Positions 19,679-34,268 of a stretch of 64,000 nt of DNA are shown in pieces (position 1 is the first letter of the stretch; the number at the start of each line of letters is the position of its first letter). The stretch covers positions 124,001 to 188,000 of the forward strand of contig NZ_VITA01000004.1 in the NCBI RefSeq assembly GCF_007827695.1. Direction: 5' to 3'. A model generated the notes under the pieces. It saw only the letters and a program-made list of their open reading frames with translations. It had not been told where the DNA came from and made no database searches. Source of the stretch: Sinorhizobium medicae. GTDB taxonomy: Bacteria > Pseudomonadota > Alphaproteobacteria > Rhizobiales > Rhizobiaceae. Both the position numbers and the translations under genes were made by a program.

Positions 19679-20668
19679 TTGCCAGACCAGATCGCCCCCA
19701 CCCCCGTTACAGTTCTCACCGGCTATCTCGGAGCTGGAAAGACAACACTCCTCAACCGCATCCTTTCTGAGCCGCATGGCAGGAAATTCGCCGTGATCGT
19801 CAACGAATTCGGCGAGGTCGGCATCGACAACGACCTGATCGTCGATGCCGACGAGGAAGTGTTCGAAATGAACAATGGCTGCATCTGCTGCACGGTGCGC
19901 GGCGACCTGATCCGCATCATCGAGGCGCTGATGAGCAGACGCGATCGTTTCGACGGCATCCTGATCGAGACCACGGGTCTCGCCGATCCGGCTCCGGTCG
20001 CCCAGACTTTCTTCGTCGACGAGGACGTTCGCTCCAAGACACGGCTCGATTCCATCGTCACCGTCGTCGATGCGAAGCATCTTCTCGGCGAAATCGACCG
20101 CGCGCACGAGGCGCAGGAGCAATTGGCTTTCGCAGACACGGTCATCCTCAACAAGACCGATCTCGTATCGGCCGAGGGCGTCAAGGCCGTGGAGGATCGC
20201 ATCCGCCGGATCAATCCCACGGCCGGCATTCTCAGGACTGAACGCTGCGATCTCGATATTACCAGTCTGCTGGATCGCAAGGCCTTCGACCTCGACCGCA
20301 TTCTCGAAATCGAGCCCGACTTCCTGGAAGAAGAGCACGCTCACGAGCATGACGATCATGTCACCAGCTTTTCACTGGTCGAACGTCGACCCGTCGACCC
20401 TGACAAGTTCTTCCGCTGGATCCAGACAACCGCTCGGACCTTCGGCATGGACATGCTGCGGATGAAGGGCATCATCGCCCTTGCCGGCGATCCCCACCGC
20501 TATGTCGTCCAAGGCGTGCATATGCTGGTGGAAGGCGATCACCAGCGTCCCTGGACAGATGGGGAGGAGCGTGTCTCGCGCCTTGTCTTCATCGGCCGCA
20601 ACCTCCCAAGGGACGTAATCTCCGGAGGCTTCGCTTCATGCTGCGCAACCCCGCCTGCCGGCGGATAG
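19679..20668 (+). CDS. CobW/COG0523-family GTP-binding metallochaperone
   Basis: The protein has 329 residues from TTG 19679, with GAGG six bases upstream. The G domain has Walker A GYLGAGKTT, the metal motif CICC (NNGCICCTVRGDL), ETTGLADP, and the NKTD base-recognition motif. A His/Glu-rich loop (EEHAHEHDDH) and a CobW C-terminal domain follow. The family loads or chaperones metal ions using GTP. The absence of cobalamin genes nearby and the Zur-like boxes favour a zinc role over cobalt; that is inference. Confidence 0.92.
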   Translation: MPDQIAPTPVTVLTGYLGAGKTTLLNRILSEPHGRKFAVIVNEFGEVGIDNDLIVDADEEVFEMNNGCICCTVRGDLIRIIEALMSRRDRFDGILIETTGLADPAPVAQTFFVDEDVRSKTRLDSIVTVVDAKHLLGEIDRAHEAQEQLAFADTVILNKTDLVSAEGVKAVEDRIRRINPTAGILRTERCDLDITSLLDRKAFDLDRILEIEPDFLEEEHAHEHDDHVTSFSLVERRPVDPDKFFRWIQTTARTFGMDMLRMKGIIALAGDPHRYVVQGVHMLVEGDHQRPWTDGEERVSRLVFIGRNLPRDVISGGFASCCATPPAGG

Positions 20669-20730
20669 TGGAGAGTTCCCGGGCAGTGCGATGGCCGAAA
20701 CCGTGCAGCGGTTCGGGCCACGCGACTTGA

Positions 20731-21486
20731 TCAGCTCAGCACGATGCCGCCGTCCACATTCAGCGTCTGGCCGGTCACGAAAGCCGCATCATCGGAAGCA
20801 AAGAAGGCAACCGCACCGACGACATCCTCGGGATCGCCGATGCGACGCATGGCGGTTTTGTCCTGCCAGCTCTTCTTCACAGCCGGATCGTCGAGATTGA
20901 CGCGCCCCATATCCGTGAGAATGATCCCGGGGCACACGCAGTTGGCAGTGATCCCGTCAACGCCCACTTCCTGTGCCAGAACGCGCGTGAAACCCATCAC
21001 TGCAGCCTTCGACGCGGAATAATGGGCCTGTTCGGGTGCACCATGCTTGCCGCCGATCGAGGCGATGTTGACGATGCGTCCATATCTGCGCGCTTTCATC
21101 ATCGGCAGAACGGCCTGGACGACCAGGAAGGTTCCCTTGGCGTTCACATCCATGACACTGTCCCAGTGTTCTTCGTCGAGGCCTTCGACATCACCTGAAA
21201 TCAGTATTCCGGCATTGTTGACCACCGCATCGAGATGGCCGAAGGCATCACCGACGGCTTTTGCCATTGCCCTCACCTCGGCCTTGCTGCTGACATCGGC
21301 GCAAACGGTTATGACGCGCCGCCCGAGCTCTTCTATCTCCGTCGCCACACCGGCGAGAACATCCTTCTGCCGCTCAATATCGTTGATGGCGACGTCATAG
21401 CCGCGCTCGGCGAGACCGATGGCGATAGCACGGCCGATGCCGCGGCTTGCGCCGGTTACGAGCGCGGTACGGTTGGAAGCAGTCAT
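20731..21486 (-). CDS. SDR family oxidoreductase (last gene of the catabolic operon)
   Basis: The protein has 251 residues from ATG 21486 (MTASNRTALVTGASRG), with GGAGG five bases upstream. It is a classical SDR: TGASRGIG at 11-18, NNAG, NIASIGG and YSASK carrying the catalytic Ser, Tyr and Lys. Asp in NDIERQ after beta-2 suggests NAD preference. It resembles 3-oxoacyl-ACP reductase-like sugar and polyol dehydrogenases. Being at the end of a sugar-type ABC/kinase operon, it probably oxidises a polyol or hydroxy sugar. Confidence 0.88.
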   Translation of the reverse strand: MTASNRTALVTGASRGIGRAIAIGLAERGYDVAINDIERQKDVLAGVATEIEELGRRVITVCADVSSKAEVRAMAKAVGDAFGHLDAVVNNAGILISGDVEGLDEEHWDSVMDVNAKGTFLVVQAVLPMMKARRYGRIVNIASIGGKHGAPEQAHYSASKAAVMGFTRVLAQEVGVDGITANCVCPGIILTDMGRVNLDDPAVKKSWQDKTAMRRIGDPEDVVGAVAFFASDDAAFVTGQTLNVDGGIVLS

Positions 21487-21499
21487 TGGGTCCTCCATT

Positions 21500-22270
21500 C
21501 TAAAGAGCGGTATAGCCGCCATCGATCGTCAACACCGTACCGGTGATATAGCTCGAAGCGTCGGCGGCAAGAAAAAGGACGGCATTGGCGATCTCGCGCG
21601 GCTCGCCCAGACGTCCCATAGGTGTCATTTGCATCCAGGTGCCAAACCATTCGGGATTGCTGCGGCCGCGCAACGTCAGTTCGGTACCGACATAGCCGGG
21701 AGCGACGGCGTTTACGCGGACACCACTCTTCGCCCATTCTACGGCAAGCGATTTCGTCAGCAGGTTCACGCCGGCCTTGGCGGCATTGTAGGAAACCTGG
21801 GGCTGCGGATAGACGGTCACTTCGCCGCAGATGGATGAAATATTGACCATCGAGCCACGCCCGGCTGCGACCATGCGCCTGCCGAAAGCCTGCGCACAAT
21901 GGAAAATGCCCCCGAGATCGATGTCGATCACCGTTTTCCAGTCATCCAGGCTCATCTCCAAAGCAGGCGCGTTACGAACGATGCCGGCATTGTTGACCAG
22001 AACGTCAACAGGGCCATACTCGTCATAGATGGTGTCCACGGCCCGAGCGACAGCTCCCGGATCGGTGACGTCCAGAGAAATGAAAGCGCCTTTACCTCCG
22101 GCCGCCTCGATGGACGCTACCGCCATATTACCCTCCGCTTCTTCGCGGTCGGCGACGACCACATGCGCACCGGCCACAGCCAGCCGTTCGGCGATCGCCC
22201 GGCCGATGCCCCGGGCAGCGCCCGTTACGACCGCACGCCTGCCGTCCAGCCTGAAGTCAGCGTCACTCAT
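21500..22270 (-). CDS. SDR family oxidoreductase
   Basis: The protein has 256 residues. The TGAARGIG cofactor loop, ADREEAEG after beta-2 (an Asp favouring NAD), NNAGIV, NISSICG and YNAAK are visible. The C-terminal VLTIDGGYTAL is typical of polyol/sugar SDRs. It overlaps the kinase stop by four bases and is followed 13 bases later by a second SDR. Two different SDRs in one operon suggest two successive or alternative oxidation steps on the imported compound. Confidence 0.88.
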   Translation of the reverse strand: MSDADFRLDGRRAVVTGAARGIGRAIAERLAVAGAHVVVADREEAEGNMAVASIEAAGGKGAFISLDVTDPGAVARAVDTIYDEYGPVDVLVNNAGIVRNAPALEMSLDDWKTVIDIDLGGIFHCAQAFGRRMVAAGRGSMVNISSICGEVTVYPQPQVSYNAAKAGVNLLTKSLAVEWAKSGVRVNAVAPGYVGTELTLRGRSNPEWFGTWMQMTPMGRLGEPREIANAVLFLAADASSYITGTVLTIDGGYTAL

Positions 22271-23775
22271 CTTGGTTCACCTCCCCGATCCCGAAGCGAC
22301 TTCAGTGCAGGATAGAGCGCGCGGTACTGCTGATAGATCCCGTCGTAGAGCGCTGCCTCACGCGGGCGGGGCTCGATACGCTTACCCGGCCGCACCATCG
22401 CTGAAATGCCCTCGTCGATGCTGGCGAAATAGCCGGCGCCATGCGCGGCAAGAACCGCGGCACCTACGGACGGCGCATCGCGGGAGGCCGGCACGCACAC
22501 CGGAAGACCGGCGGTATCGGCATGAATCTGAAGCCAGAGCTCGGATGCGCCAGCACCTCCGCCAACTGTGATTTCGCTGCCGCGATAGCCTGCTTCCGCC
22601 ATGGCATCGAGAATTGCGCGCGTCCCGAAGCCTATGCCCTCCATGATGGCGCGAAAGATATGATGCGGCTCGTGGGCCAGTGTCAGACCGACGATCGCGC
22701 CGCGCGAGAGCGCATCGGTGTAGGGAGTTCGGTTCCCCTGGAAATGGTCCTGTACCAGAAGCCCGTCGCAACCGGGCTCGAGCGCGGCCGCCTTGCGGTT
22801 CAGTTCGTCGAGATCCATCGTCCCGTTCATCAGCCGGCCGAGCCAGGCGATGATCGATCCGGTGGAAGTCTGGCCCCCTTCGACGATGTAGCGGTTCGGA
22901 TAAACGCAGTCACGATAAGTGCCCCAAACACCCGGTGCATGAACGGCGGATTCCGTGACGCCGAACTGAAGATGCGACGAGCCGGTGATCAACGCGAGCT
23001 GCCCGGGTTTGGCGACGCCCAGCCCGATCATGCCGATCAGGGCATCCGCGCCGCCTTGGACCAGCTTGACCCTGGTGGAGAGACCGAGTTCCTGTGCGGC
23101 AGCCGGCGATAGGGTACCTACGACTTCACCTGGGGCGACGACTCGCTGGGGCCATTTGTCGAGCAGCGCCGAAAGTCCGAGCTTCTCTACGAGCGTCCTG
23201 GCCCAGCCGCCGCGATCGGTCTGGTAGTGCCATCGTAGCGTCACGTTGTTGAGGCTCGCCGCACGCTCCCCGGTGAGCCTCAAGGTCATGAAGTCCTGGT
23301 ATTCGCAGATCGTGTGTGCTTCTTCGAATATCTCGGGTTCGTTGCGGGCGATCCACAATGCCTTCGGGATCATCCATTCCGCTGACACCGGTCCACGACC
23401 GGCCCCGTTTGAAATGAGGGCTTCGTCGCCGGTTGCGAGAACCGCGTCCGCTTCATCGCTGGCGCGCACATCCATCCAGATGATCGCCGGCCTGAGCGCC
23501 TTGCCCTCACGGTCGAGCGCGACCACTGTGCAACTCGTCGTCGCAAGCGTGATCGCCTCGATTGCAGCCGGTTCCACGTCTGCCTCCGAGATCGTCCGGC
23601 GCGATGCTTCGACGAAGGCTCTCCACCAATCCTCCGGGTTCTGTTCGGCGCGCGCGCCGGCCGAAAACCTCGTCTCGTAAGGGACGGCAGCGCTCCCGAG
23701 GCAGTTGCCGGTGAGATCGTAAAGGCGTGCCCGAAGACTTTCGGTGCCGCCATCCGCGGTCAGAAAATAGCCCAT
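22267..23775 (-). CDS. FGGY-family carbohydrate kinase
   Basis: The protein has 502 residues. The N-terminal ATPase-fold signature DGGTESLRARLYD, IIWMDVRASDEA near residue 97, YQDFMTLRLTGE, the Gly-rich LITGSSHLQFG and the C-terminal TVGGGAGASELWLQIHADTAGLPV place it in the FGGY kinases (ribulokinase, xylulokinase and relatives). It has GGT in place of the usual GTxS start and so belongs to a less characterised subgroup. It likely phosphorylates a ketose or oxidised polyol. LsrK, which phosphorylates the AI-2 precursor, is in the same superfamily, but nothing here shows that specificity. Confidence 0.9.
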   Translation of the reverse strand: MGYFLTADGGTESLRARLYDLTGNCLGSAAVPYETRFSAGARAEQNPEDWWRAFVEASRRTISEADVEPAAIEAITLATTSCTVVALDREGKALRPAIIWMDVRASDEADAVLATGDEALISNGAGRGPVSAEWMIPKALWIARNEPEIFEEAHTICEYQDFMTLRLTGERAASLNNVTLRWHYQTDRGGWARTLVEKLGLSALLDKWPQRVVAPGEVVGTLSPAAAQELGLSTRVKLVQGGADALIGMIGLGVAKPGQLALITGSSHLQFGVTESAVHAPGVWGTYRDCVYPNRYIVEGGQTSTGSIIAWLGRLMNGTMDLDELNRKAAALEPGCDGLLVQDHFQGNRTPYTDALSRGAIVGLTLAHEPHHIFRAIMEGIGFGTRAILDAMAEAGYRGSEITVGGGAGASELWLQIHADTAGLPVCVPASRDAPSVGAAVLAAHGAGYFASIDEGISAMVRPGKRIEPRPREAALYDGIYQQYRALYPALKSLRDRGGEPR

Positions 23776-23810
23776 TCCATCCTCCTCCTCCGCCCCTGCG
23801 GGATGGCTCC

Positions 23811-24146
23811 CTATTGCAGTGCGCGCATGATTTCCAATGCCTTTGCGCCATACATGACCGCCGGACCGCCGCTCATCTCCACCGCGACCTCGAGGGCCTC
23901 GACCAGTTCCGCCTCCTTGGCACCGTGCTTAAGTGCGGCATCCACATGGTAAAGAATGCAATCTTCGCATCCTTTCGATACGGCGATTGCTACCGCCATC
24001 AACTCTTTCTGCGTCGAAGTGAAGCTGCCTGACGCGGCCGCGACCTTGCTGACCCGTGCAAAGCCACCGAAGAGCTCTGGGCTGGCTTTGGCCAGCGCAG
24101 CGATCCGGCGTTGCGCATCCTTCAGTTTTTCCGAAACTTCGCTCAC
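23811..24146 (-). CDS. Carboxymuconolactone decarboxylase/AhpD-like protein
   Basis: The start GTG 24146 (MSEVSEKLKDAQRR) has GGAG seven bases upstream and overlaps the acoC-like stop by four bases; the product has 111 residues. GCEDCILYHVDAALKHGA holds the CxxC...H motif of AhpD-type thiol peroxidase partners. In some systems AhpD couples a lipoyl-bearing E2 to peroxide reduction. A lipoyl E2 is encoded immediately upstream, so a thiol-redox role with that complex is plausible but unproven. Confidence 0.85.
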   Translation of the reverse strand: MSEVSEKLKDAQRRIAALAKASPELFGGFARVSKVAAASGSFTSTQKELMAVAIAVSKGCEDCILYHVDAALKHGAKEAELVEALEVAVEMSGGPAVMYGAKALEIMRALQ

Positions 24147-25456
24147 GGCTGTTCTCCCTTGGAAAGCAGGATTTCGAGGACGTCCTTCGTCTGGTCCCAT
24201 TGCGGCATATGGCCGGACCTGGACAGGAGATGGATCGCCACCTGCGGCGGCAAAGCAAGGACCTGCCGCCACGGAATGATCCTGTCTTCGAGACCGAAGA
24301 GCACCCGCACCGGCATCGATGCGACGAGCCTCTGAAGCGCCATAAGGCTGTCCACTCTCTGGCCGGACGGACCCGCCACGGCATCGGCAAGCGCCCTAAG
24401 CCTTCCTCTCGCGAGATCAGCCGCAATCGCTTCCAATGCAGCTTCTGAAAGCTCGATGCCGTTGACGGACAAGCGGCGCAGGAGATGGGCTATTTCCCCG
24501 CTCGTGCGAGCACCAGCCATGCCATGAACGAAGCCGGTGTCGATTTCGGAACCGATGCCGGCAGGGGCGATCAACGAAAGCGACCCGATCCGGCGCGGTT
24601 CCGAAGCGGCAAGCCCGAGGGCAGCTACCGCCCCAAGCGAATGCGCGACGACGTCCACCTTTTCGATGGCGAGCGCGTCAAGAAATTCGACAAGGTCGGC
24701 GGATAGGTCGGAAGGCGAGCTAGCTTCAATCTCCGTCAGTCCATGACCGGGAAGATCCGGAGCGATGACGCGCTTGCCGGCGCGTCTGAGGCCCGCGAGG
24801 ACTGCCGTCCAGGTGGTCCGGTCACCCGAAAAGCCATGAAGGAGCAGCACTGTGCCCCCGAATGCCTTGCCGCTGTCGAGGTAAGCCATGCGGCCGCGCC
24901 GAAGCGCTGCGTAGCTGGTTGCCGCAGCAGCGGGCATCCTGGATGGCACCGATTGACCGTCTGCGGCGGCCAGCACATCATGCTTCTCGATGCGGCCGCG
25001 CCGGCCAGTGCCGGCTACGGAGTTGATGTCGATGCCGCTGCGGCGCGCAAATCGGCGTGCAAGGGGCGTCGCACGGACGCGATCACCCGGGCGCTTGGGA
25101 TTATCGTCTAAAGGCGGTTCTTTCGCCGTATCTGCCGTCGCCTCGGCCTTTGTCACTGCGGCTTCGGTCTCCGGTTCCGCCGCGGAGCCATCCTCGGCGG
25201 TCCAGTCGGGACCGGAGACGATATCGACGCGCGCAAGCGGCTTGCCGACCTCGATCATGTCGCCGATCTCGACGAGAACCTCCTCTAGCCTTCCGTCCCC
25301 GAGCGCCGGGAACTCGGCGATCGTCTTGTCGGTTTCGATCTCGATGATCGGATCGCCGCGGCGGAAACTGTCGCCCGGCTTGATCAGCCAGCCGACAATC
25401 TTGCCTTCTTCCATCGTCTCGCCGAGGCGAGGCATTTTGAGGATGCGTTCGCTCAT
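24143..25456 (-). CDS. AcoC-like E2: lipoyl domain, E3-binding domain and alpha/beta hydrolase
   Basis: The protein has 437 residues in three parts. A lipoyl domain at about 3-78 has the lipoylated Lys in EIETDKTIAEF. A peripheral-subunit-binding domain is at about 128-165 (ATPLARRFARRSGID, GRRGRIEKHDV). A C-terminal alpha/beta hydrolase follows, with LLLHGFSGD, nucleophile elbow AHSLGAVAALG and late SRSGHMPQWDQ. This is the layout of acetoin-dehydrogenase E2 proteins. There is no HxxxD acyltransferase core as in PDH E2. It overlaps E1 beta by four bases. No E3 gene is present, so a housekeeping lipoamide dehydrogenase is presumably shared. Confidence 0.9.
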   Translation of the reverse strand: MSERILKMPRLGETMEEGKIVGWLIKPGDSFRRGDPIIEIETDKTIAEFPALGDGRLEEVLVEIGDMIEVGKPLARVDIVSGPDWTAEDGSAAEPETEAAVTKAEATADTAKEPPLDDNPKRPGDRVRATPLARRFARRSGIDINSVAGTGRRGRIEKHDVLAAADGQSVPSRMPAAAATSYAALRRGRMAYLDSGKAFGGTVLLLHGFSGDRTTWTAVLAGLRRAGKRVIAPDLPGHGLTEIEASSPSDLSADLVEFLDALAIEKVDVVAHSLGAVAALGLAASEPRRIGSLSLIAPAGIGSEIDTGFVHGMAGARTSGEIAHLLRRLSVNGIELSEAALEAIAADLARGRLRALADAVAGPSGQRVDSLMALQRLVASMPVRVLFGLEDRIIPWRQVLALPPQVAIHLLSRSGHMPQWDQTKDVLEILLSKGEQP

Positions 25457-26430
25457 GCCATCATTCTCGCGGCAACATCGGCAATCATCCTTGCGGAAGG
25501 CACGCTGCCGGACTCGAGTTCCTGCGAAACCGAGATCGGGATGTCTTCACCGGCCACGCGCAGGACGGGCTGTTCCAGAAAATCGAAACACTCCTCGGAG
25601 ATGCGGGCGGCAAGCTCGGCGGCAACGCCCGAGGTCATCACCCCTTCGCTCACCACCATCGCCTTGCCTACGCGCTCGACATGCTCGCGCACCGTATCGA
25701 AATCCAGGGGATTCAGCGTCCGGAGATCAATGACGGTCGCTTCGATCCCCTTCCTGGCAAGCGCGTCGGCCGCTTCCAATGCGTAAAACACCTGTCGGGA
25801 ATAGGTGACGATGACGAGATCGTCGCCTTGGCGGCGAACGGCAGCCTTGCCCCAGGGCAAAGGATCTGCGTCGAGGTCGATTTCCTCCTTGCGGGTATAA
25901 AGTGCCTTGTGCTCGATGAAGACCACCGGATCCGGTTTGGTCAGGCTCTGGCGCAGCAGATGATAGGCATCGGCGACCGTTGCCGGCATGGCGAGCCGAA
26001 GACCTGGCGTATGCATCACCCAGGCTTCGAGGCTCTGCGAATGCTGTGCGCCAGCGGAACGGCCCGTACCGCCCTGGGTTCTGAGCACCATAGGTACGCC
26101 GATCTGGCCGCCGAACATGTACCGTATCTTGGCCGCCTGGTTGGCGAGCTGATCCATGGTCATGCCCAGAAAGTCGATATACATCAGTTCTGCGACCGGG
26201 CGCAGGCCCGTCATCGCCGCACCGACAGCGGTGCCGACGATGGCCGGCTCGGAGATCGGCGTATCGATCAGTCGGTCGGCCCCATGTATCTTGATGAGAT
26301 CCTTGGTGACCCCGTATGCGCCGCCATAGCGGCCCACTTCCTCGCCGATCACGACGATGGAGCTGTCATCCGTCATCGCGTCGTCCAGCGCCTTGCGGAG
26401 CGCGTCTCTGTACGTCATCGAAGTCATCAT
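25453..26430 (-). CDS. Thiamine-dependent 2-oxoacid/acetoin dehydrogenase E1, beta subunit
   Basis: The protein has 325 residues. MTYRDALRKALDDAM, IGEEVGRYGGAYGVTKDL, DTPISEPAIVGTAVGAAM and QGGTGRSAGAQHSQSLEAW are classic E1-beta (transketolase C-like) motifs; the conserved Glu of EEVG contacts the thiamine N1'. It overlaps E1 alpha and E2 by four bases on either side. In this ABC/kinase/SDR setting the substrate is more likely an acyloin-type intermediate than pyruvate, as argued under findings. Confidence 0.92.
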   Translation of the reverse strand: MMTSMTYRDALRKALDDAMTDDSSIVVIGEEVGRYGGAYGVTKDLIKIHGADRLIDTPISEPAIVGTAVGAAMTGLRPVAELMYIDFLGMTMDQLANQAAKIRYMFGGQIGVPMVLRTQGGTGRSAGAQHSQSLEAWVMHTPGLRLAMPATVADAYHLLRQSLTKPDPVVFIEHKALYTRKEEIDLDADPLPWGKAAVRRQGDDLVIVTYSRQVFYALEAADALARKGIEATVIDLRTLNPLDFDTVREHVERVGKAMVVSEGVMTSGVAAELAARISEECFDFLEQPVLRVAGEDIPISVSQELESGSVPSARMIADVAARMMA

Positions 26431-27455
26431 GCGTCATCCCTGGCAAGAACACGGTCGATACGGGCCCTGACGGATTCAGGCTCGGGCTCGCCGGCGGCGT
26501 AGACATCCTTGAACATCGAGCCCAGCGGCGGTGCCTTGGATTCGACGGCAAAATCGATGGTCGCATCCATTTCCGCGGCGATCGCTTTGTCCAGTTCGTC
26601 GAGTATCCGCTCCTCCTCGATACCGGTGTCGATCAGCTTGTTGCGCGCGAAAAGCACCGGATCCTTTTTGCGGCCTTCCAGTTCCTCCGCCTCCTCGCGA
26701 TAGGGACTTTTGTCCATGCGTGCATGGCCGAAGAAACGATAGACCTCGACGGACAGGAATCCGGGCTTGCCGGCGCGCGCCTCGTCAACGAGCCAGCGCG
26801 CCGCGGCTTGAACTTCCTCGACGTCGAGGCCGTCGACCACCGCGCCGTTCAGCCCAAAGGCCTTGGCCCGCTGGTCGAATGCCGTGTTGCGGGTCGCCTG
26901 GTCGATGCGCGTGCCCATGCCGTACTGATTGTTGATGCAGACGAAGAGCACCGGCAGGTTCCAGAGCGAAGCCATGTTCATGCTCTCGTACAGGATGCCC
27001 TGCTGCATGGCCCCGTCCCCAAAGAAGGCGATCGAGACCGAATCCTGCTTGAGATGCCTGCTCGACAGACCGGCACCGATCACGGCGGGTATGCCGCCGC
27101 CGACAATGGCATTGGCACCAAGATGACCGAGCGCCATGTCCGCGATGTGCATCGAACCGCCCTTTCCGCGGCAGTAACCGGTTTCCTTGCCGCCGATTTC
27201 AGCCATCATCCGCTTAGGATCGGCACCGCGTGCGAGGAAGATGCCATGGCCGCGATGGTGGGTCGTGAAGGTGTCCTGGGGCTTCATTGCCGCGCAGACG
27301 CCCGCAGCGCTCGACTCCTCGCCTATGGAAAGATGCAGCATCGAACCTGCGGATTGTCCGCGCACGAAGAGTTCGCCGACCCGTTCCTCGAAGGTGCGGA
27401 TGCGCCGCATCGTCCGATAGAGCTCGAGCAGGTTGGTATTCACAGGAGCGTCCAC
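26427..27455 (-). CDS. Thiamine-dependent 2-oxoacid/acetoin dehydrogenase E1, alpha subunit
   Basis: The protein has 342 residues. The ThDP/Mg motif starts as FFGDGAMQQGILYESMN and ends in CINNQYG (GDG...NN); HHRGHGIFLARG and KGGSMHIADMALGHLGANAIVG are E1-alpha landmarks. The phosphorylation loop of PDH E1 alpha is not evident. It is the fourth gene from the start of the operon, 40 bases after the ABC permease, and overlaps E1 beta. Name choice between acoA and pdhA cannot be made from sequence alone. Confidence 0.92.
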   Translation of the reverse strand: MDAPVNTNLLELYRTMRRIRTFEERVGELFVRGQSAGSMLHLSIGEESSAAGVCAAMKPQDTFTTHHRGHGIFLARGADPKRMMAEIGGKETGYCRGKGGSMHIADMALGHLGANAIVGGGIPAVIGAGLSSRHLKQDSVSIAFFGDGAMQQGILYESMNMASLWNLPVLFVCINNQYGMGTRIDQATRNTAFDQRAKAFGLNGAVVDGLDVEEVQAAARWLVDEARAGKPGFLSVEVYRFFGHARMDKSPYREEAEELEGRKKDPVLFARNKLIDTGIEEERILDELDKAIAAEMDATIDFAVESKAPPLGSMFKDVYAAGEPEPESVRARIDRVLARDDA

Positions 27456-27495
27456 GCGTCCCTCCTTTTATGGTTCATGATTCGGGATTCCGCGA

Positions 27496-28488
27496 TCAGA
27501 GAAGCTTGAGCTTCGTCGTCCGGGAGACGATCGCTACGGCGACCAGGATGATCAGTCCCTTGACGATGCTCTGGATGTAGGTGTCCATGCCGACAAGGTT
27601 CAGTCCGTTGTTGATGACGCCGATGAACAGTGCCCCGAAGAAGGTGCCGGTGACGGTCGCCGTGCCGGGACGGATCATCGTCATGCCGATGAACACGGTT
27701 GCCAGGCCATCGAGCAGGTAGCGCTCGCCGGCATTCGGCTGACCGGAGCCGAGACGCGCGGCCAGCAATGCGCCGGCGACAGCAGCAAAGAGGCTGCAGA
27801 CGACGAGCGCCGCGGCACGGTAGAAGCGGCCGTTGACGCCCGAGAGCTCCGCCGCCCTGAGATTGCCGCCGGCCGCGTAGATGTAGCGGCCGAAAATCGT
27901 CCGCTCCATCAGGAACCATGCCAGCAGCACGAAGAGCACCATTGCATAGGCGAGCACGGGAATCCCGAGCAACCGCCCCTGCCCCATCCACAGATAGGCA
28001 TCCGGCAGGCCGCCATAGATGGCGCGGCCGCCAGTCGTGAGAAAGTTGATGCCGTAAAGGATCGAACCTGTTGCCAGGGTCGCTATCAGCGAGGGCACGC
28101 CGACAAGCGTCACCAATGCGGAATTGACTGCGCCGACCGCGAAGCCGGCGCCGACTCCAGCGAGAAGCGCAAGCGGCAGCGGCACACCCGAAATCAGCAG
28201 CAACGGCACGAGGATACCGGAAAGACCAACCATATAGCCGACCGACAAATCCATTTCACGCGCGGCAAAGCCGAAGGTCAATCCGGCACCGACGATCGTC
28301 AGCATCGAAATCTGCTGGATGATGTTGAGCAGGTTGGACGCCGTGAGGAATCGATCGACGGTGATGGCGAAGCCAAGGAACAGAACGATAAGCGCGAAGA
28401 GCGTGCTGTATCTGAGGAGCCAGTCCTTGCGGCCTCGGCTCGCCGTCACGCCTTTGGCACCTGCCAGGGTTTGTGAGGTTGCATTCAT
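27496..28488 (-). CDS. Sugar-type ABC transporter permease (RbsC family)
   Basis: I start at ATG 28488 (MNATSQTLAGAKGV), which overlaps the ATPase stop by four bases; the longer frame lies inside the ATPase gene. The 330-residue protein has about eight to ten hydrophobic helices and the BPD_transp_2 signatures MDLSVGYMVGLSG, NSALVTLVGVPSLIATLAT and VNGRFYRAAALVVC. It forms the membrane channel of a CUT2-type importer with the neighbouring SBP and ATPase. Confidence 0.92.
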   Translation of the reverse strand: MNATSQTLAGAKGVTASRGRKDWLLRYSTLFALIVLFLGFAITVDRFLTASNLLNIIQQISMLTIVGAGLTFGFAAREMDLSVGYMVGLSGILVPLLLISGVPLPLALLAGVGAGFAVGAVNSALVTLVGVPSLIATLATGSILYGINFLTTGGRAIYGGLPDAYLWMGQGRLLGIPVLAYAMVLFVLLAWFLMERTIFGRYIYAAGGNLRAAELSGVNGRFYRAAALVVCSLFAAVAGALLAARLGSGQPNAGERYLLDGLATVFIGMTMIRPGTATVTGTFFGALFIGVINNGLNLVGMDTYIQSIVKGLIILVAVAIVSRTTKLKLL

Positions 28489-29999
28489 TGAATTACTCCT
28501 GCCATGGCAGAGATGAATCGGATCTCGGAAAAATCGGCTCGCTCGATGATGGGGTGAGCCCGTCCGCCGACAAACGGAATGACCCGGTCGGAGATGTCGG
28601 CGATCTCCATGAGATCCGACGACGTGACGATGATGGCCGCACCCTGCGCCGCCAGCCGCTTCAGGTGACCGTGGATTTCGCGCTTGGCGCCGATGTCGAC
28701 GCCTTCGGTTGGCTCGATGAAGATCATCAGGCTGTAGCGCTCGCCGGCACCGTAGAGCCACTTGCCGATCGAGACCTTCTGCTTGTTGCCCCCGCTGAGA
28801 TCCTTGATCATCTGCGCCGAGGAATGCGCCTTGATGTTGAGGAGCGACATGATCTCGTTGGCTTCATGCACTTCCTTGCGCGGTGAGAGCACGCCGGTGG
28901 ACCCGAAGGTCGCGTGCTGCGGATGCACCATGGCGAGGTTCTCACGCACATCCCAATCCGCGACGAGCGCGTTTTCCATGCGCTGATCGGGGATGAAGGC
29001 GACGCCGCGCTTCTGCATGTCGCGGGCGTTGACGCTCCTCAGTGACTGACCTTTGTACCGCGTCTCGCCGCGGACCACGCCTTCCCCGGTGTAGATCGAC
29101 CGGGCAAAACCGAAATGGCCGGCGCCGGTAAGACCGATCAGGCCGACAATTTCCCCTGACCGGATCGCGAAGCGGTCGACTTCGACAGCGCCCGCCTTCC
29201 ACTCTTCGAGTTCGAGCACCGCGTCGCCGATCGTGCGGGTCACTTGTGCCGCGGCGGTCCCCGTCCCCGCCCCGCCGGCGCGCTGCAGCATGAGATCGAC
29301 GAGTTGCGCTTCGCTGGCCTCCACCGATGCGAGGGTGGAGACGTGGCGGCCGTCGCGAAGCACCGTAATCCTGTCGCTCAGCGCCTTCACCTCCGATAGA
29401 AAGTGGCTGATCAGAACGATGCCGACGCCGCGGGCCGGCAATGTCTTGATGATGCGCCAGAGATTTTCCTTTTCGCGCGCCGGCAACGTTGCCGTCGGCT
29501 CGTCGAGGATGAGCAGCCGGATATCGCCGCGCAATGCGCGCACGATTTCGATGACCTTCTGGTCGGCCATCGGCAAGCTGTCGATGGTCATGTCGAGGTC
29601 GATGGAGACCTCAGGAAACCACTTCTCGAGCAGAGCTGCCGCGCGGCTGCTGAGTTCACGCTTGTTGATGATGCCGAGCGCATTTCTCGGCTCGTCTCCG
29701 AGCAGGATATTCTGGGCGGCGCTGAGCCCGGGAACCAGGCACCCCTCCTGCGAGACATGGGCAATGCCCTTGCGCAGCGCGTCACCGGCACTGTGCAGTA
29801 CCGCTTGCCTGCCGTCGATCGTGATCTTGCCGGCAGTCGGCAGTTTGCTGCCGGCCAGAACGCTGACAAGCGTGGTCTTGCCCGCCCCGTTTTCGCCAAT
29901 AAGGCCGTGGACCTCGTCGAAGCGAAAGTCGACGCTTACGTCGTCGAGCGCGCGCGTGCCCGGATATTGCATGACGATGCCGGAAAGACTGACGGCCAT
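28485..29999 (-). CDS. Sugar-type ABC transporter ATP-binding protein (RbsA/MglA family)
   Basis: I start at ATG 29999 (MAVSLSGIVMQYPGTRAL), with GAGG five bases upstream, giving 504 residues. Two fused ATPase domains are seen: Walker A GENGAGKTTL and LILDEPTAT in the first; in the second the Walker A is degenerate (GLTGAGHFGFARSI) and LSGGNKQKVSIGKWL is the signature. This asymmetry is normal in CUT2 ATPases. It energises uptake of the unknown sugar or polyol. Confidence 0.93.
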   Translation of the reverse strand: MAVSLSGIVMQYPGTRALDDVSVDFRFDEVHGLIGENGAGKTTLVSVLAGSKLPTAGKITIDGRQAVLHSAGDALRKGIAHVSQEGCLVPGLSAAQNILLGDEPRNALGIINKRELSSRAAALLEKWFPEVSIDLDMTIDSLPMADQKVIEIVRALRGDIRLLILDEPTATLPAREKENLWRIIKTLPARGVGIVLISHFLSEVKALSDRITVLRDGRHVSTLASVEASEAQLVDLMLQRAGGAGTGTAAAQVTRTIGDAVLELEEWKAGAVEVDRFAIRSGEIVGLIGLTGAGHFGFARSIYTGEGVVRGETRYKGQSLRSVNARDMQKRGVAFIPDQRMENALVADWDVRENLAMVHPQHATFGSTGVLSPRKEVHEANEIMSLLNIKAHSSAQMIKDLSGGNKQKVSIGKWLYGAGERYSLMIFIEPTEGVDIGAKREIHGHLKRLAAQGAAIIVTSSDLMEIADISDRVIPFVGGRAHPIIERADFSEIRFISAMAGVIQ

Positions 30000-30066
30000 C
30001 TGGTCCTCGCTTCCATTGCCTTTTCCCCGCATCGCGAGCGACGCTGCGGAATCCAAGTCGAGTCCG

Positions 30067-30094
30067 GGCCGGCTCCTCAGACGGAGCCGGCCCT
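30067..30094 (-). terminator. Stable hairpin after the SBP gene
   Basis: A perfect 11-bp stem (GGGCCGGCTCC, 30067-30077, with GGAGCCGGCCC, 30084-30094) and six-base loop begins five bases after the SBP stop. No U-tract follows, so it more likely stabilises the SBP mRNA 3' end or attenuates than ends transcription, giving more SBP than membrane parts. Confidence 0.6.
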
Positions 30095-30098
30095 TCGG

Positions 30099-31046
30099 TC
30101 ACTTCGGGAGGAAGTCCTTGCAGTTCTGCTTGGTGACCAACGGGGCGTCCATATAGACCGTCTTCGCCGGTATGACCTTGGCTGGGTCTTCTTTCCTGAC
30201 GACGATCTCCTCGATCCACGCGCCGGCCTGTGCACCCATCTTCTCGAAGGGCTGACTGACTGTGGCGATCATCAGACCGTCCGGCTTGCAGACCTCGGTG
30301 ACGGCATTGGGATGGCCGTCGATGCCGATAACCTTCACGTTCTTGAGGCCGGCAGCCTGCAGCACGTTGATCGCCGCTTGCGCAGGCTCGTCCCAGGGAG
30401 CCCAGACGGCGTCGATCTCGTCTCCGAACCGGGATGCATAATCCTGCATCGTCGATGTCGTATCCTCGAAGAAGGCGGTGTAGTCGATGTTGTGCTCGGC
30501 CAGAACCTTCACGTCCGGGTATTCCCTGAGGATGGTCTCCATCACGTCGCCGCGCTTGCGGGTGCCGTGATGTTCGGCCATGCGAAGGAATATGATGCGG
30601 CCCTTCCCACCCAGTTCGTTCAGCAGATAGGGCGAAACATCCGAAGACATGGCCCAGTTATTTGTGGTGACGTCGACCAGAACGCCCGGAATGTAACCGC
30701 TGTCGACGGTGATGATCGGGATTTTTGCGTCGACCGCGGCATCGATTGCGGCGCGGGACGCGCGCAGATCCGCCATGGTGATGATGATCGCATCGACGCC
30801 GCGGGAAGCCGCGTCCTGAAGGTTGGATGCGGTGCGTTCGCCGGAGCCGCCGCTGTCGAGCAGGCTCACATTCCAGTCCTTGCCGGTTTCCTTCAGCCAG
30901 GCATCGAAGCCGGCCTTGACCCGCTGCTCGGATTGGGCGGCGGCATTTGCGTGCACCCAGGCGAGATTCAGCGCATTCGCGCCGGTTGCATTCAATAGAA
31001 ATCCTACGACGGCGGCGGCCGCCGCCTTCCTCCAATTAGCTGACAT
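30099..31046 (-). CDS. Sugar-type ABC transporter substrate-binding protein
   Basis: The protein has 315 residues from ATG 31046 (MSANWRKAAAAAVVG), with GGAGG upstream. The signal peptide ends near GANA-LN (about residue 25). It is a periplasmic-binding-protein type 1 (RbsB-like) fold: DAASRGVDAIIITMADLRA, AVDAKIPIITVDSG, VWAPWDEPAQAAINVLQAAG and VKVIGIDGHPNAV. It is the first gene of the operon, immediately facing the SorC-type regulator. The ligand cannot be named from sequence. Confidence 0.93.
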   Translation of the reverse strand: MSANWRKAAAAAVVGFLLNATGANALNLAWVHANAAAQSEQRVKAGFDAWLKETGKDWNVSLLDSGGSGERTASNLQDAASRGVDAIIITMADLRASRAAIDAAVDAKIPIITVDSGYIPGVLVDVTTNNWAMSSDVSPYLLNELGGKGRIIFLRMAEHHGTRKRGDVMETILREYPDVKVLAEHNIDYTAFFEDTTSTMQDYASRFGDEIDAVWAPWDEPAQAAINVLQAAGLKNVKVIGIDGHPNAVTEVCKPDGLMIATVSQPFEKMGAQAGAWIEEIVVRKEDPAKVIPAKTVYMDAPLVTKQNCKDFLPK

Positions 31047-31113
31047 TTGATCTCCTCCACGGCGGGCCACATTGACCCACTTCCCCATTCGCGCTCACTA
31101 GGCGAATGCAGTC

Positions 31114-31160
31114 ATGTAAATTGACAGCGTTACATTTGTCAACTTAAAATACATTTGTAA
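31114..31160. promoter_or_regulatory. Overlapping divergent promoters and operator between the SBP and SorC-type genes
   Basis: TTGACA occurs on the plus strand at 31121-31126 and on the minus strand at 31142-31137, so TTGACA-N10-TGTCAA forms an inverted repeat. Plus-strand TAAAAT (31145-31150) lies 18 bases from its -35; minus-strand TTACAT (31119-31114) lies 17 bases from its own. A direct repeat TACATTTGT (31131-31139 and 31150-31158, 19 bases apart) overlays both and is the likely site of the SorC-type regulator. Confidence 0.6.
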
Positions 31161-31173
31161 GGAAAGGGATGGA

Positions 31174-32151
31174 ATGTCGGAAGATGATGACGCGCTGATG
31201 GTGCGGGCGGCCTGGTTTTACTATGTCGGCGGCCTCAACCAGGAAATGACCGCCGCCCGGCTGGGCCTCACCCGTGCCAGGGTCAATAAAATGCTGGCCG
31301 AGGCGCGCGAGAGCGGGCTTGTCAGCATTTCGATCGACCATCGGCGGGTCGGTGTCCTGCCGCTCGAGGACAGGCTGCGCACGCGCTTCGGGCTTGATTT
31401 CTGCATCTCCACACCGGCCTTCGGGTTTCACGATACGTCCAAGCAAGACAGCGAAGTGCGCAAGCAGATCGCCTTCCGAGCCGTGGGCGTGGCTGCCGCC
31501 AATCACTTGAAAACATTGCTTTCCGAGAACGATTCCCTGACGGTCGGGACCGGTTGGGGCCGAACGATCGAACAGATGACCTTGCATCTGGCCGGCGTTC
31601 GGGCGCCGCATGCGCGCTTCATCTCGATCATGGGGTCGTTGACGGCAAACAATGCCTATAACCCGTTCGAAGTCGTGCACAGCCTCGCGAGACGCACCGG
31701 CGGCGAAGGTTATTTTCTTCCGGTGCCCTTCATCGCCGACTCGGTAGATGACAAAAAGGTCCTCATCTCACAACGTTCCGTGGTCAAGGCATTGGAAATC
31801 GCCCGCAGTGCTTCCGTCTGCTTCATCAGCGCGGGTGAATTGACGGAGGAATCGCTTTTACGGCGCCAGGGCATGATCAGCGGCACCGAACTCGAAAGCC
31901 TGCGGCAGGCCGGCGCCGTCGGCGACACCAACGGCATTTTCTTCGACAGCGAAGGGAGGCAGGTCGACCATGAGCTCAACGAACGGACCATCGCACTGGG
32001 TTTCGAAGAGCTGAAGGCTCTGCCGGTGCTCCTGCTGATCGCCGGCCTGGAGAAAATCCAGGCGGCCCGGGCCCTGCTTCGCAGCGGCGTCGTCAACGGT
32101 CTGATCATAGACGGCGATGCGGCCGAGGCGTTGGCAGCGTTGGGCGAATAG
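31174..32151 (+). CDS. SorC/DeoR-type sugar-binding transcriptional regulator
   Basis: The protein has 325 residues. An N-terminal winged helix at about 12-55 (YYVGGLNQEMTAARLGLTRA) is followed by the SorC sugar-phosphate-binding domain: VGVAAANHLKTLL, VGTGWGRTIEQM, SIMGSLTANNAYNPFEVV and DTNGIFFDSEGRQVDH. Regulators of this class, including LsrR, sense a phosphorylated sugar. It is divergent from the ten-gene operon and shares a compact promoter with it. The effector is predicted to be the product of the FGGY kinase. Confidence 0.92.
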   Translation: MSEDDDALMVRAAWFYYVGGLNQEMTAARLGLTRARVNKMLAEARESGLVSISIDHRRVGVLPLEDRLRTRFGLDFCISTPAFGFHDTSKQDSEVRKQIAFRAVGVAAANHLKTLLSENDSLTVGTGWGRTIEQMTLHLAGVRAPHARFISIMGSLTANNAYNPFEVVHSLARRTGGEGYFLPVPFIADSVDDKKVLISQRSVVKALEIARSASVCFISAGELTEESLLRRQGMISGTELESLRQAGAVGDTNGIFFDSEGRQVDHELNERTIALGFEELKALPVLLLIAGLEKIQAARALLRSGVVNGLIIDGDAAEALAALGE

Positions 32152-32176
32152 CTCGATCAGGATCCCTGCTACCAGC

Positions 32177-32317
32177 ATGGCAATGCCAGTGTTGGAAACG
32201 GCCGCGATCGTGCGTCAGGCGCTTGTGCGCGTCGAGATCGGGAAGCGCCTCATTGCCCTCGGGGGCACGATACACGACGCCGAGGCTGCGCATCGCCGGA
32301 ACGAGGCTGCGAAGTGA
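32177..32317 (+). pseudogene. vapB: vapB antitoxin remnant (C-terminal part)
   Basis: A 46-codon frame carries VRQALVRVEIGKRLIALGG followed by TIHDAEAAHRRN, which matches the C-terminal half of VapB antitoxins that read like ...VRVEAAKRLAALGG...PRRR. The N-terminal DNA-binding part is missing or unrecognisable. The stop overlaps a GTG that begins a VapC-like peptide (GTGA), the usual vapBC junction. The pair is a decayed toxin-antitoxin locus. Confidence 0.65.
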
Positions 32318-32380
32318 TCCTTGCGGACACTTCGATCGCCTTTCGGCGGCTTCATTACATATCGCTATTTCTTGGAAAAC
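32314..32380 (+). pseudogene. vapC: vapC toxin remnant (first codons only)
   Basis: After GTG 32314 the peptide reads MILADTSIA, the PIN-domain N-terminus of VapC with its first catalytic Asp, then loses similarity and runs into the tRNA-Gly 3' end at 32381. The toxin is truncated after about nine residues. Its position against the tRNA suggests the rest was lost in an integration or excision event. Confidence 0.55.
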
Positions 32381-32455
32381 TGGAGCGGGTGAGGCGATTC
32401 GAACGCCCGACCCCAACCTTGGCAAGGTTGTGCTCTACCCCTGAGCTACACCCGC
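32381..32455 (-). tRNA. tRNA-Gly (anticodon GCC)
   Basis: The minus strand folds as a complete cloverleaf: acceptor GCGGGTG/CACCCGC, D arm GTAGCTCAGGGGTAGAGC, anticodon stem ACCTT-GCC-AAGGT around GCC, T arm GGGCGTTCGAATCGCC, discriminator T and encoded CCA (75 nt). GCC reads GGC and GGU glycine codons. Its 3' end faces the vapBC remnant and the catabolic locus. Confidence 0.97.
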
Positions 32456-32705
32456 TCATAAGACCCAGGTCCGGGGGTAGTCTATGGACCAGGGCGTCAC
32501 CCCGTCTTGCGGCGACGGGCGCTATATGGCCCAAGCCCTTTTCAAATGCAACAGGGAAATGACGCGAACGCGAAGAATTTTTTTGTGAGCGTATGCGAAG
32601 ACCGGGGATGCCGTTGTTGCGGCGGCGCAATGCCGCGCATGAGATTGCGAAATCTTCCGCCCATCCTTAAACCATGCGGGATATCGCACGGCAGAAAGGG
32701 TGACC

Positions 32706-33215
32706 ATGAGCAAGGCAGAGCCGAAGACGGCGGAGGACCTGTTCCGTTTTCTGGACGAACTCGGAATCGAACACAGGACGACGCGGCACGCGCCGGTCTT
32801 TACCGTCGCCGAGTCGGTGGCGCTGCGCGATGAAATCCCCGGCGGACATACAAAAAACCTGTTCCTGAAGGACAAAAAGGACAATTATTTCCTTCTAACC
32901 GTCGAGGAGCACGCAACGGTGGACCTGAAGGCCGTTCACCAGATCATCGGCGCGGCAAGCAAGGTTTCCTTCGGCAGATCGGAGAAGCTGATGGAGTATC
33001 TGGGCGTGATACCGGGCGCCGTCACCGCCTTCGGGGCGATCAACGACACCGAAGGCAAGGTGAAGATCATTCTCGACGAGACCCTGATGGCTTTCGACAC
33101 GATCAACTGCCATCCGCTCTCGAACGACCAGACGACCTCGATCGCGTCGAAGGACATGCTGCGCTTCATGGAAGCGACAGGACACGAGCCGCTTGTCTTG
33201 AAAGTAACGGCCTGA
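32706..33215 (+). CDS. Prolyl-tRNA synthetase-associated editing domain protein (ProX/YbaK family)
   Basis: I start at ATG 32706 (MSKAEPKTAEDLFRFLDEL), with AAGGG upstream, giving 169 residues. RHAPVFTVAE, PGGHTKNLFLKDKKDNYFL, KAVHQIIGAASKVSFG and GVIPGAVTAFGAIND are typical of PrdX/ProX-type trans-editing proteins, which hydrolyse mischarged Ala-tRNA(Pro). The conserved Lys of HTKNLF is present. It stands alone between tRNA-Gly and the thioredoxin-like gene. Confidence 0.9.
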   Translation: MSKAEPKTAEDLFRFLDELGIEHRTTRHAPVFTVAESVALRDEIPGGHTKNLFLKDKKDNYFLLTVEEHATVDLKAVHQIIGAASKVSFGRSEKLMEYLGVIPGAVTAFGAINDTEGKVKIILDETLMAFDTINCHPLSNDQTTSIASKDMLRFMEATGHEPLVLKVTA

Positions 33216-33275
33216 CATACGATCTTTGGCGCGAATGCATGAAAACCGGACGCCCGAGTCCGCGAGGAGAGAAGA

Positions 33276-34268
33276 ATGAGCGGTAGCGACAATCCCTATC
33301 AAGGTTCCTTCGGCAGCCAGATGACGGGCTCGGCTTCCTTCGGTGTACGGCCGGAAAGCGCCGCGGGCGGTCCGAACGGCTTGATCCCGGACGACCTGAT
33401 CAGGGAGACGACGACCGCCGCCTTCAGTCGCGACGTGCTCGAGGCATCCCGCCAGCAGCCGGTTCTCGTCGATTTCTGGGCGCCTTGGTGTGGTCCATGC
33501 AAGCAACTGACCCCGGTCATCGAAAAGGTGGTGAAGGAAGCCGCCGGCCGGGTGAAGCTCGTCAAGATGAACATCGACGATCATCCCTCGATTGCGGGCC
33601 AGCTCGGTATTCAGTCCATTCCCGCAGTGATCGCCTTCGTCGACGGCCGACCGGTTGATGGTTTCATGGGGGCCGTGCCCGAAAGCCAGATCAAGGAGTT
33701 CATCGACCGCATCGCCGGCCCGGGCACAGACGACGCAACGGCCGAGATCGAGAATGTGCTTGGGGAAGCCAGGGCGCTGCTCGATGCAGGCGACGCGCAG
33801 AACGCCGCCGGCCTCTACGGTGCGGTCCTGCAGGCGGATCCGGAGAATGCCACGGCAGTAGCCGGGATGATCGAATGCATGATCGCGCTCGGGCAGCTCG
33901 CCGAGGCACGCCAGGCGCTTTCCGGCTTGCCGGAGGCGCTCGCCAATGAAGCGTCCGTCGCTGCCGTCTCGAAAAAGCTCGACCAGATCGAGGAGGCCCG
34001 CAAGCTCGGTGACCCGACGGCGCTCGAGCGTCAGCTCGCGCTCGATCCGGATGACCACGGCGCACGGCTCAAGCTTGCCAAGATCCGCAATGTGGAGGGC
34101 GACCGGGCCGCCGCCGCCGAACACCTCCTGACCATCATGAAGCGCGACCGCAGCTTCGAGGACGACGGCGCCCGGCGCGAACTGCTGTCGTTCTTCGAGG
34201 TATGGGGGCCGAAGGATCCGGCAACGATCGCGGCACGGCGCAAGCTGTCGTCGATTCTCTTTTCGTAA
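33276..34268 (+). CDS. Thioredoxin-TPR co-chaperone-like protein (CnoX/YbbN type)
   Basis: The protein has 330 residues. An N-terminal Gly/Ser-rich segment is followed by a thioredoxin domain at about 45-145 with the intact WCGPC active site (DFWAPWCGPCKQL) and cis-Pro in SIPAVIAF. TPR-like helices follow at about 155-325 (ARALLDAGDAQNAAGLYGAVL). YbbN/CnoX proteins protect oxidised clients and pass them to GroEL or DnaK. Here the CxxC motif is intact, so redox activity is expected. Confidence 0.92.
   Translation: MSGSDNPYQGSFGSQMTGSASFGVRPESAAGGPNGLIPDDLIRETTTAAFSRDVLEASRQQPVLVDFWAPWCGPCKQLTPVIEKVVKEAAGRVKLVKMNIDDHPSIAGQLGIQSIPAVIAFVDGRPVDGFMGAVPESQIKEFIDRIAGPGTDDATAEIENVLGEARALLDAGDAQNAAGLYGAVLQADPENATAVAGMIECMIALGQLAEARQALSGLPEALANEASVAAVSKKLDQIEEARKLGDPTALERQLALDPDDHGARLKLAKIRNVEGDRAAAAEHLLTIMKRDRSFEDDGARRELLSFFEVWGPKDPATIAARRKLSSILFS

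Follow-up and report, generated by a model that had tools for sequence, protein, structure and literature searches.

Positions 20,731 to 32,151 of a 64,000-nucleotide stretch of Sinorhizobium medicae DNA (contig NZ_VITA01000004.1, positions 124,001 to 188,000; hereafter the window) harbour an operon that joins a CUT2 sugar importer and an FGGY kinase (KIN) to an E1/E2 complex dependent on thiamine pyrophosphate (TPP). Read from the promoter, its genes encode a substrate-binding protein (SBP), an ATPase, a permease, E1alpha, E1beta, E2, an AhpD-like protein, KIN and two short-chain dehydrogenases/reductases (SDR1 and SDR2). An earlier sequence-only reading of the window had described ten minus-strand genes and a divergent SorC-family regulator (REG); all were present in an open-reading-frame check, the domains of the ten proteins were confirmed by Pfam scores over cut-off or by NCBIfam matches (Table 1), and the tenth gene, which that reading had left unnamed, encodes the AhpD-like protein. 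Four-base overlaps are found at five of the nine junctions (ATPase/permease, E1alpha/E1beta, E1beta/E2, E2/AhpD-like and KIN/SDR1), the other four being gaps of 13, 35, 40 and 99 bases, the last of which would be only 42 with TTG 30056 as the ATPase start. The tabulated starts of SBP (31046), ATPase (29999) and SDR2 (21486) are the likely ones, and that of SBP is preceded by GGAGGAG and coincides with where the gene is annotated to begin in S. meliloti Ak57. Here, we propose, as the reading that on balance we favour, that the operon serves the catabolism of a 1-deoxy sugar, by which we mean a sugar or sugar alcohol whose future ketone carbon carries a methyl group, and that the kinase and the E1/E2 complex would together lead to cleavage of a 1-deoxyketose phosphate into acetyl-CoA and an aldose phosphate.

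Table 1. Genes and predicted operator of the locus, with window positions and the supporting matches.
Feature	Positions	Strand	Evidence
SorC-family regulator (REG), divergent	31174..32151	+	NCBIfam DeoR 161.5 bits (cut-off 420), LsrR 114.8 (486)
Predicted operator ACAAATGT-N11-ACAAATGT, minus-strand reading	31132..31158	.	Octamer conservation in REG-SBP intergenic stretches
CUT2 (RbsB-like) substrate-binding protein (SBP)	30099..31046	-	Peripla_BP_4 117.5 bits
CUT2 ATPase, alternative start 30056	28485..29999	-	ABC_tran, two stretches
CUT2 permease	27496..28488	-	BPD_transp_2 123.3 bits
E1alpha, TPP-dependent dehydrogenase complex	26427..27455	-	E1_dh 222 bits; KIN-type clade; loop GHARMDK
E1beta	25453..26430	-	Transket_pyr 142.9 bits, Transketolase_C 121.2 bits
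E2, AcoC type: lipoyl, E3-binding, alpha/beta hydrolase domains	24143..25456	-	Biotin_lipoyl, E3_binding, Abhydrolase_6; PRK14875
AhpD-like small protein (CMD family), E-x11-C-x2-C-x3-H	23811..24146	-	CMD 66.8 bits; ahpD_dom 44.5 (cut-off 27.8)
FGGY kinase (KIN), pentulokinase-like	22267..23775	-	FGGY_N, FGGY_C
SDR1, polyol-dehydrogenase-like	21500..22270	-	Best PDB match galactitol dehydrogenase 2wdz, 226 bits
SDR2	20731..21486	-	adh_short_C2 231.3 bits

The sequence-only reading had proposed a genome-neighbourhood search, and a scan of named genomes for kinase relatives, of which the best 80 loci were kept, found a conserved core of kinase, E1 and E2. At least 5 kb was available on both sides of the kinase in 55 of the 80 (full-flank loci); the loci are related by descent, and counts of the core are not independent events. 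E1alpha and E1beta both lay near the kinase in 41 of the 55 full-flank loci, namely in 32/34 at ≥70% kinase identity, 3/4 at 60–70%, 3/4 at 55–60%, 3/8 at 50–55% and 0/5 below 50% (3/13 under 55%), such that kinase, E1alpha and E1beta occurred together in 38 of 42 loci at ≥55%. When cut loci were included, both E1 genes were found in 56 of the 80 and E2 in 55 of these 56. Fifteen FGGY loci of lower identity in the family (31–42%; L023–L036 and L038) had no E1alpha, E1beta or E2 within about 1.5 kb on each side. Near the kinase in the 55 full-flank loci, an importer of the window type was found in 24, SDR1 in 18, SDR2 in 24 and the AhpD-like gene in 24. Recurrence of the arrangement across Hyphomicrobiales and Rhodobacterales, and of the core also in betaproteobacteria, Verrucomicrobiota, Myxococcota and Deinococcota (the last three as metagenome-assembled genomes, MAGs, only), argues that the gene arrangement is not due to chance. 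Judged by gene content, kinase, E1 and E2 are the unit that is retained while all else changes.

The modules exchanged around this core were identified by searching a single representative per gene cluster. In one variant, the CUT2 importer and the SDRs are replaced by an ABC importer with a RhaS/LsrB-like SBP and by a D-psicose-3-epimerase-like gene; the SBP of L069 scored 136.7 bits for RhaS and 120.8 bits for LsrB, and the epimerase-like gene of L086 scored 158.6 bits for D-psicose 3-epimerase, all under the equivalog cut-offs. Further variants combine an importer and epimerase-like gene of these kinds with an aldo-keto reductase (AKR) and Dak1/Dak2, or a CUT1 importer with a FucU-like mutarotase, which adjoins the core in L095, and Dak1/Dak2, while an FGGY_C_2 kinase is an extra module on the core-bearing loci L088 and L098. 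The minimal loci L069, L074, L086 and L090 hold an importer, SorC, the 3-epimerase-like gene, E1alpha/E1beta/E2 and the kinase. Since the clustered genes there gave neither an SDR match nor an AKR or Dak cluster (unclustered neighbours were not searched), the substrate probably enters these loci as a ketose that the kinase and E1/E2 can finish. In L093 (3363–6500), an MtnA-cluster isomerase, an APH-family kinase and a 3-epimerase-cluster gene stand divergent from the kinase-E1-E2 core, hinting at a 5-deoxypentose input.

In the proposed pathway, the importer would take up a 1-deoxypentitol or a 1-deoxyketose, the SDRs would oxidise or epimerise it to the 1-deoxyketose, and the FGGY kinase would phosphorylate this 1-deoxyketose, the product most likely being a 1-deoxypentulose 5-phosphate, for example 1-deoxyxylulose 5-phosphate (DXP). 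The TPP of E1 would attack the C2 ketone, the C2–C3 bond would split and glyceraldehyde 3-phosphate would be released, whereas the two-carbon unit would be oxidised onto the lipoyl group of E2 and leave as acetyl-CoA; a housekeeping E3, recruited via the E3-binding domain, would reoxidise the lipoate. Xylo and ribo forms would yield the same products because the C3 stereochemistry is lost in the cut. The phosphorylated sugar would be the likely effector of the SorC regulator, and the E1/E2 step as a whole would be the oxidative counterpart of DXP synthesis. PMC3424233 describes the formation of 1-deoxyxylulose by pyruvate dehydrogenase (PDH), with pyruvate and glyceraldehyde as substrates, the synthesis of DXP by aceE mutants and the phosphorylation of 1-deoxyxylulose by XylB. 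DXP synthase (DXS) and the PDH side reaction, in which E1 variants make DXP (PMC3424233), share with the window complex the same bond and the same kind of TPP intermediate, but the latter would belong to a catabolic operon and cleave oxidatively, with acetyl-CoA as product.

A sister type of operon carries DXR-II, the enzyme that produces 2-C-methylerythritol 4-phosphate (MEP) from DXP (PMC3847144). On pRM41A of S. meliloti Rm41 it comprises a CUT1 importer, a PfkB-family kinase, SorC, DXR-II (DRL_cat 227.5 bits), E1alpha, E1beta, E2, E3 and lipA; Terrarubrum and Pseudoroseomonas have SorC, a glucitol-type phosphotransferase system (PTS), DXR-II, E1alpha, E1beta and E2, and Aminobacter has DXR-II, E1alpha, E1beta and E2 without SorC. 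E1alpha starts at most 154 bases downstream of DXR-II, on the same strand, in at least 32 plasmid records (60 of 77 matching records listed); this is a lower bound, as the E1alpha matches listed were 60 of 334 records, and many of the 32 are related strains. A Priestia plasmid encodes an FGGY kinase (40% identity to KIN), E1alpha, E1beta, E2, E3 and a pair of SorC regulators; its DXR-II is a SAF-domain protein identified by a match to the Brucella enzyme (3upl_A, E 5e-109), and E1alpha lies 8.3 kb upstream of it. These operons resemble that of the window in leading from sugar uptake and phosphorylation to E1/E2, with SorC in most annotated examples (not Aminobacter), and differ in having DXR-II with a PTS or another kinase where the window has FGGY and SDRs, and in a distinct E1 clade; Priestia has both DXR-II and FGGY.

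In the DXR-II operons, the PTS or kinase would make MEP and DXR-II, run backwards, would make DXP, and because DXP would be supplied in this way it is the obvious substrate for E1/E2. By analogy, the DXR-II operon type names the likely INTERMEDIATE: DXP, for the E1/E2 that follows. By contrast, among the best 30 DXR-II loci of family genomes, 26 lacked E1 in the roughly 1.5 kb around them, which is what a role in isoprenoid synthesis would predict. In one family genome (L204, 7596–10425), an FGGY kinase adjoins DXR-II together with SorC, CUT2 genes and SDRs, and no E1 match was found in 18 kb. Both operon types taken together, we tentatively suggest that several bacterial phyla may carry an as yet unrecognised 'reverse DXP synthase'. 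Such a complex, related to acetoin dehydrogenase but tolerant of phosphate, would oxidatively cleave DXP or a 1-deoxypentulose 5-phosphate to acetyl-CoA and glyceraldehyde 3-phosphate, and would draw its substrate either from 1-deoxy-sugars, by way of SDRs and an FGGY kinase, or from 2-C-methylerythritol, by way of a kinase or PTS followed by backward DXR-II.

Against NCBIfam, KIN scored 288.1 bits for XylB (cut-off 380.25), 265.9 for ribulokinase (428) and 261 for FGGY pentulose kinase, all below cut-off. By the equivalog cut-off it is not a xylulokinase (XylB), and since its highest scores are with pentulose kinase models its product is probably a C5 compound. This, with the C5 compound indicated by the DXR-II operons, makes it unlikely that the substrate is instead a 1-deoxyketose with six carbons, derived from fucitol, rhamnitol or another 6-deoxyhexitol, whose 1-deoxyhexulose 6-phosphate would give acetyl-CoA and tetrose 4-phosphate, even though such a substrate would suit the RhaS/LsrB-like SBP of L069, the FucU-like mutarotase beside the core in L095 and the nearness of SDR1 to galactitol dehydrogenase.

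The complex is akin to acetoin dehydrogenase (AcoABC) in its TPP-dependent E1alpha/E1beta and in a lipoyl E2 in which an alpha/beta hydrolase replaces the usual acyltransferase domain, and the window complex, too, would cut an acyloin beside a methyl ketone. E2 passes the AcoC model (PRK14875, 416.8 bits; cut-off 307), the E1s are related to AcoA/AcoB, and acetoin reductases are among the PDB matches of SDR2 (4weo, 1geg), all of which would suit an ordinary pentitol operon with an acetoin dehydrogenase merely co-transcribed, its E1/E2 acting on acetoin or pyruvate. However, the E1s of the kinase loci stand apart. In an E1alpha tree of 68 rows, with long branches flagged by the program, 56 KIN rows fell on one side of a branch (support 100/99), the acetoin-context E1s of Klebsiella, Rhodococcus and Mycetohabitans formed a separate group (100/99), and four DXR-II-operon E1s grouped with a SorC-linked E1 of C. 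difficile (97/89). E1 phylogeny was rejected as proof of a common DXP substrate, the KIN and DXR-II groups being separate.

Residues 10–324 of the window E1alpha align with human PDH E1alpha, and A245 of the window protein corresponds to Ser in 1ni4 and to Glu in 2ozl; we take the aligned residue to be the regulatory Ser264 at the active site. The E1alpha loop reads GH[AG]R[MK]DK in 56/56 KIN rows, GHFEGD in 6/6 acetoin-type rows, GHS[KR]SD[RA] in 9/9 DXR-II-operon rows (five full, four from partial loci) and GHSMSDP in a row from the own genome (L001). A clean rule is opposed by the C. difficile E1 (GHSKSDA) and by relatives from Thermus (GHYVGDP) and Phaeobacter (GHHVGDI). Among further columns that set KIN and DXR-II rows against acetoin rows, position 43 of E1alpha is Ser in KIN rows and Ser or Cys in DXR-II rows as opposed to Tyr in five acetoin rows, and position 291 of E1beta is Arg in both KIN and DXR-II rows as opposed to Leu or Cys in five acetoin rows. 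The basic loop residues are consistent with a phosphorylated substrate. Classical acyltransferase E2s occur in the KIN-type locus L109 and in the DXR-II-type loci L123 and L156, with the AcoC type in L157 and L158; because the classical form replaces the AcoC type in each, acyl-CoA would be the expected product of both operon types. L109 is from a Deinococcota MAG, and it is this classical E2 (8844–9986), in place of the alpha/beta hydrolase type, that accompanies its kinase-E1 core. Domain and family scans of the operon proteins found no AcoX or sigma-54 AcoR-type gene, and the complex is tied to an FGGY kinase and a sugar importer. With its own E1 clade, its basic loop and its persistence beside the kinase across changes of importer and phylum, action on acetoin or pyruvate appears improbable.

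The notion, already put forward in the sequence-only reading, that a TPP/lipoate complex cuts a kinased deoxy-ketose directly to acyl-CoA is thereby partly supported, by the conserved core, an E1 clade and loop unlike those of acetoin dehydrogenases, minimal operons without dehydrogenases and the DXR-II/E1/E2 operons. Its extension to branched sugars enters through the sister, DXR-II type only and not demonstrably through the window operon.

A further reading, an oxidative transketolase cutting a normal (1-hydroxy) ketose phosphate to glycolyl-CoA and an aldose phosphate, would agree with a kinase and SDRs that suit common pentitols, but is highly improbable: normal ketose phosphates feed the pentose phosphate pathway already, which would render E1/E2 superfluous, and the DXR-II operons do not fit. 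The Lsr system has a SorC regulator, a CUT2-type importer and an FGGY kinase, as does the window operon, and its end products, acetyl-CoA and a triose phosphate, would also be those of the window pathway. The comparison had been drawn before and holds as an analogy only, in that KIN (177.6 of 528 bits) and REG (114.8 of 486 bits) fall short of LsrK and LsrR, and a Pfam scan of the ten operon proteins gave no LsrF thiolase-type domain. Scavenging of autoinducer-2 (AI-2, or 4,5-dihydroxy-2,3-pentanedione, DPD), with an SDR reducing DPD to a 1-deoxypentulose that is then kinased and cut, is the least probable of the alternatives. It has in its favour the LsrB-like SBP of L069 and the three families shared with Lsr, but has against it the distance of kinase and regulator from the Lsr cut-offs and a C4 configuration of DPD that would yield L-glyceraldehyde 3-phosphate.

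The regulator of the 1-deoxy-sugar operon proposed here also recurs with a putative operator. Fifteen hand-picked SorC rows from KIN operons, the window included, form one clade (98/94). The octamer ACAAATGT was present in 29 of 30 REG-SBP intergenic stretches, again with the window and lacking only in L068; its 44 occurrences compare with about 0.1–0.3 expected (shuffles gave a mean of 0.15 rows), for an octamer chosen from those same, related stretches. An exact pair with N11 spacing was found in 21 of the 30. In 247 family genomes the paired form occurred at 15 places, ten of them at KIN operons by coordinates, while 15 kinase loci of ≥73% were found in these genomes, five without the exact pair. 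Of the five places away from KIN operons, one has a SorC gene at a distance of about 0.7 kb; around the remaining four, 19–20 kb gave no match to SorC, kinase, E1 or DXR-II. Among ten SorC loci of the own genome, only that of the window operon had the octamer.

Among 16 DXR-II rows with a SorC, PTS or E1 context, seven have the same octamer upstream of DXR-II; the 16 rows represent 14 distinct places (L122/L123 and L036/L204 are each the same place). It occurred in 4 of 28 other DXR-II rows, just past the estimated start codon only, and upstream in 0/28. Perfect octamer pairs precede DXR-II in two Listeria records and in Ligilactobacillus (L154 8883–8909, L155 8962–8988 and L170), where the paired operator is accompanied by DXR-II and a glucitol-type PTS, with no E1/E2 in the fetched stretch; in Ligilactobacillus, fsa and tkt lie downstream. 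A common operator was rejected as proof of a common effector and kept as a hint, because the SorC proteins fall in separate clades and the hosts concerned are AT-rich, which makes chance half-sites more frequent.

Several observations weigh against the cleavage of a 1-deoxypentulose phosphate by the window operon. Close full-flank kinase loci without E1 exist, L043 (84.8%) and L051 (82.6%), as do L081 and L092, also at ≥55% kinase identity. Other kinase relatives stand without E1/E2 beside different enzymes, an MtnA-like isomerase and a FucA-like aldolase in L099 and a fucose-isomerase-domain protein in L111, so that the kinases of this family are not bound to one substrate and probably act on a number of pentulose-like sugars. 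We infer all catalytic steps, including the backward direction of DXR-II, and phosphate binding by the loop is read from an alignment; a basic loop is likewise seen in the SorC-linked C. difficile E1, an enzyme of unclear substrate. The DXR-II-operon E1s form a different clade and, in the SorC tree, the regulators of those operons fall outside the KIN clade, for which reason the link of DXP to the window operon is one of analogy. No DXR-II match above 100 bits was found in the 80 KIN loci (L039–L118), and none in the own genome at E 1e-50. Finally, DXR-II relatives without E1 lie beside a PTS (Listeria, Ligilactobacillus) or a CUT2 importer (Phyllobacterium), and a more distant match lies in a Deinococcus polysaccharide locus, also without E1.

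The protein families concerned are known, and it is their combination as a pathway cleaving a phospho-1-deoxyketose that appears to be new. As the sequence-only reading knew of no characterised pathway with this exact gene set, so a limited search of open-licence literature (titles and abstract beginnings) found none, nor any pathway cleaving a phospho-1-deoxyketose. In the main text of PMC3847144 neither 'catabol' nor 'salvage' occurs, and the accessible part of PMC13001223 mentions DXR-II once and lacks 'catabol'. One group of strains (class B), most of them Firmicutes, is reported to have DXR-II as well as DXR-I, and DXR-II activity was confirmed for Finegoldia magna, which yielded no further genes of the MEP or mevalonate (MVA) pathway (PMC3847144). 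If our proposal is true, the MEP-pathway sugars 1-deoxyxylulose and methylerythritol would have a bacterial catabolic fate, and two central metabolites would be formed without carbon loss by a reaction not found described for any sugar phosphate in the same limited search. It would also explain the persistence of DXR-II in genomes that have DXR-I or that lack the MEP pathway.

The AhpD-like protein has the AhpD core domain with E-C-C-H spacing, which we take to be the catalytic residues, and E-x11-C-x2-C-x3-H was kept in 30/30 relatives found in the 80 loci. It may shield the lipoyl groups of the complex or return them to the oxidised state; a role as stand-in for E3 is not favoured, as E2 retains its E3-binding domain.

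The region is not set apart from its surroundings by base composition. The operon is rare in the genus, in that among 33 genus genomes searched at E 1e-60 an E1alpha of >43% identity was found only in the own genome, and a copy is present in S. meliloti Ak57 (94% identity for the kinase to 97% for E1alpha), where the E2 gene is annotated as two pieces (L119, 12308–13626). An Rfam scan of 20000–33500 gave a tRNA as its sole match. This tRNA-Gly (gcc) gene adjoins the regulator (window 32381–32455, minus strand) and, since the operon E1alpha has a close match in just one of the 33 genus genomes, may be an insertion point.

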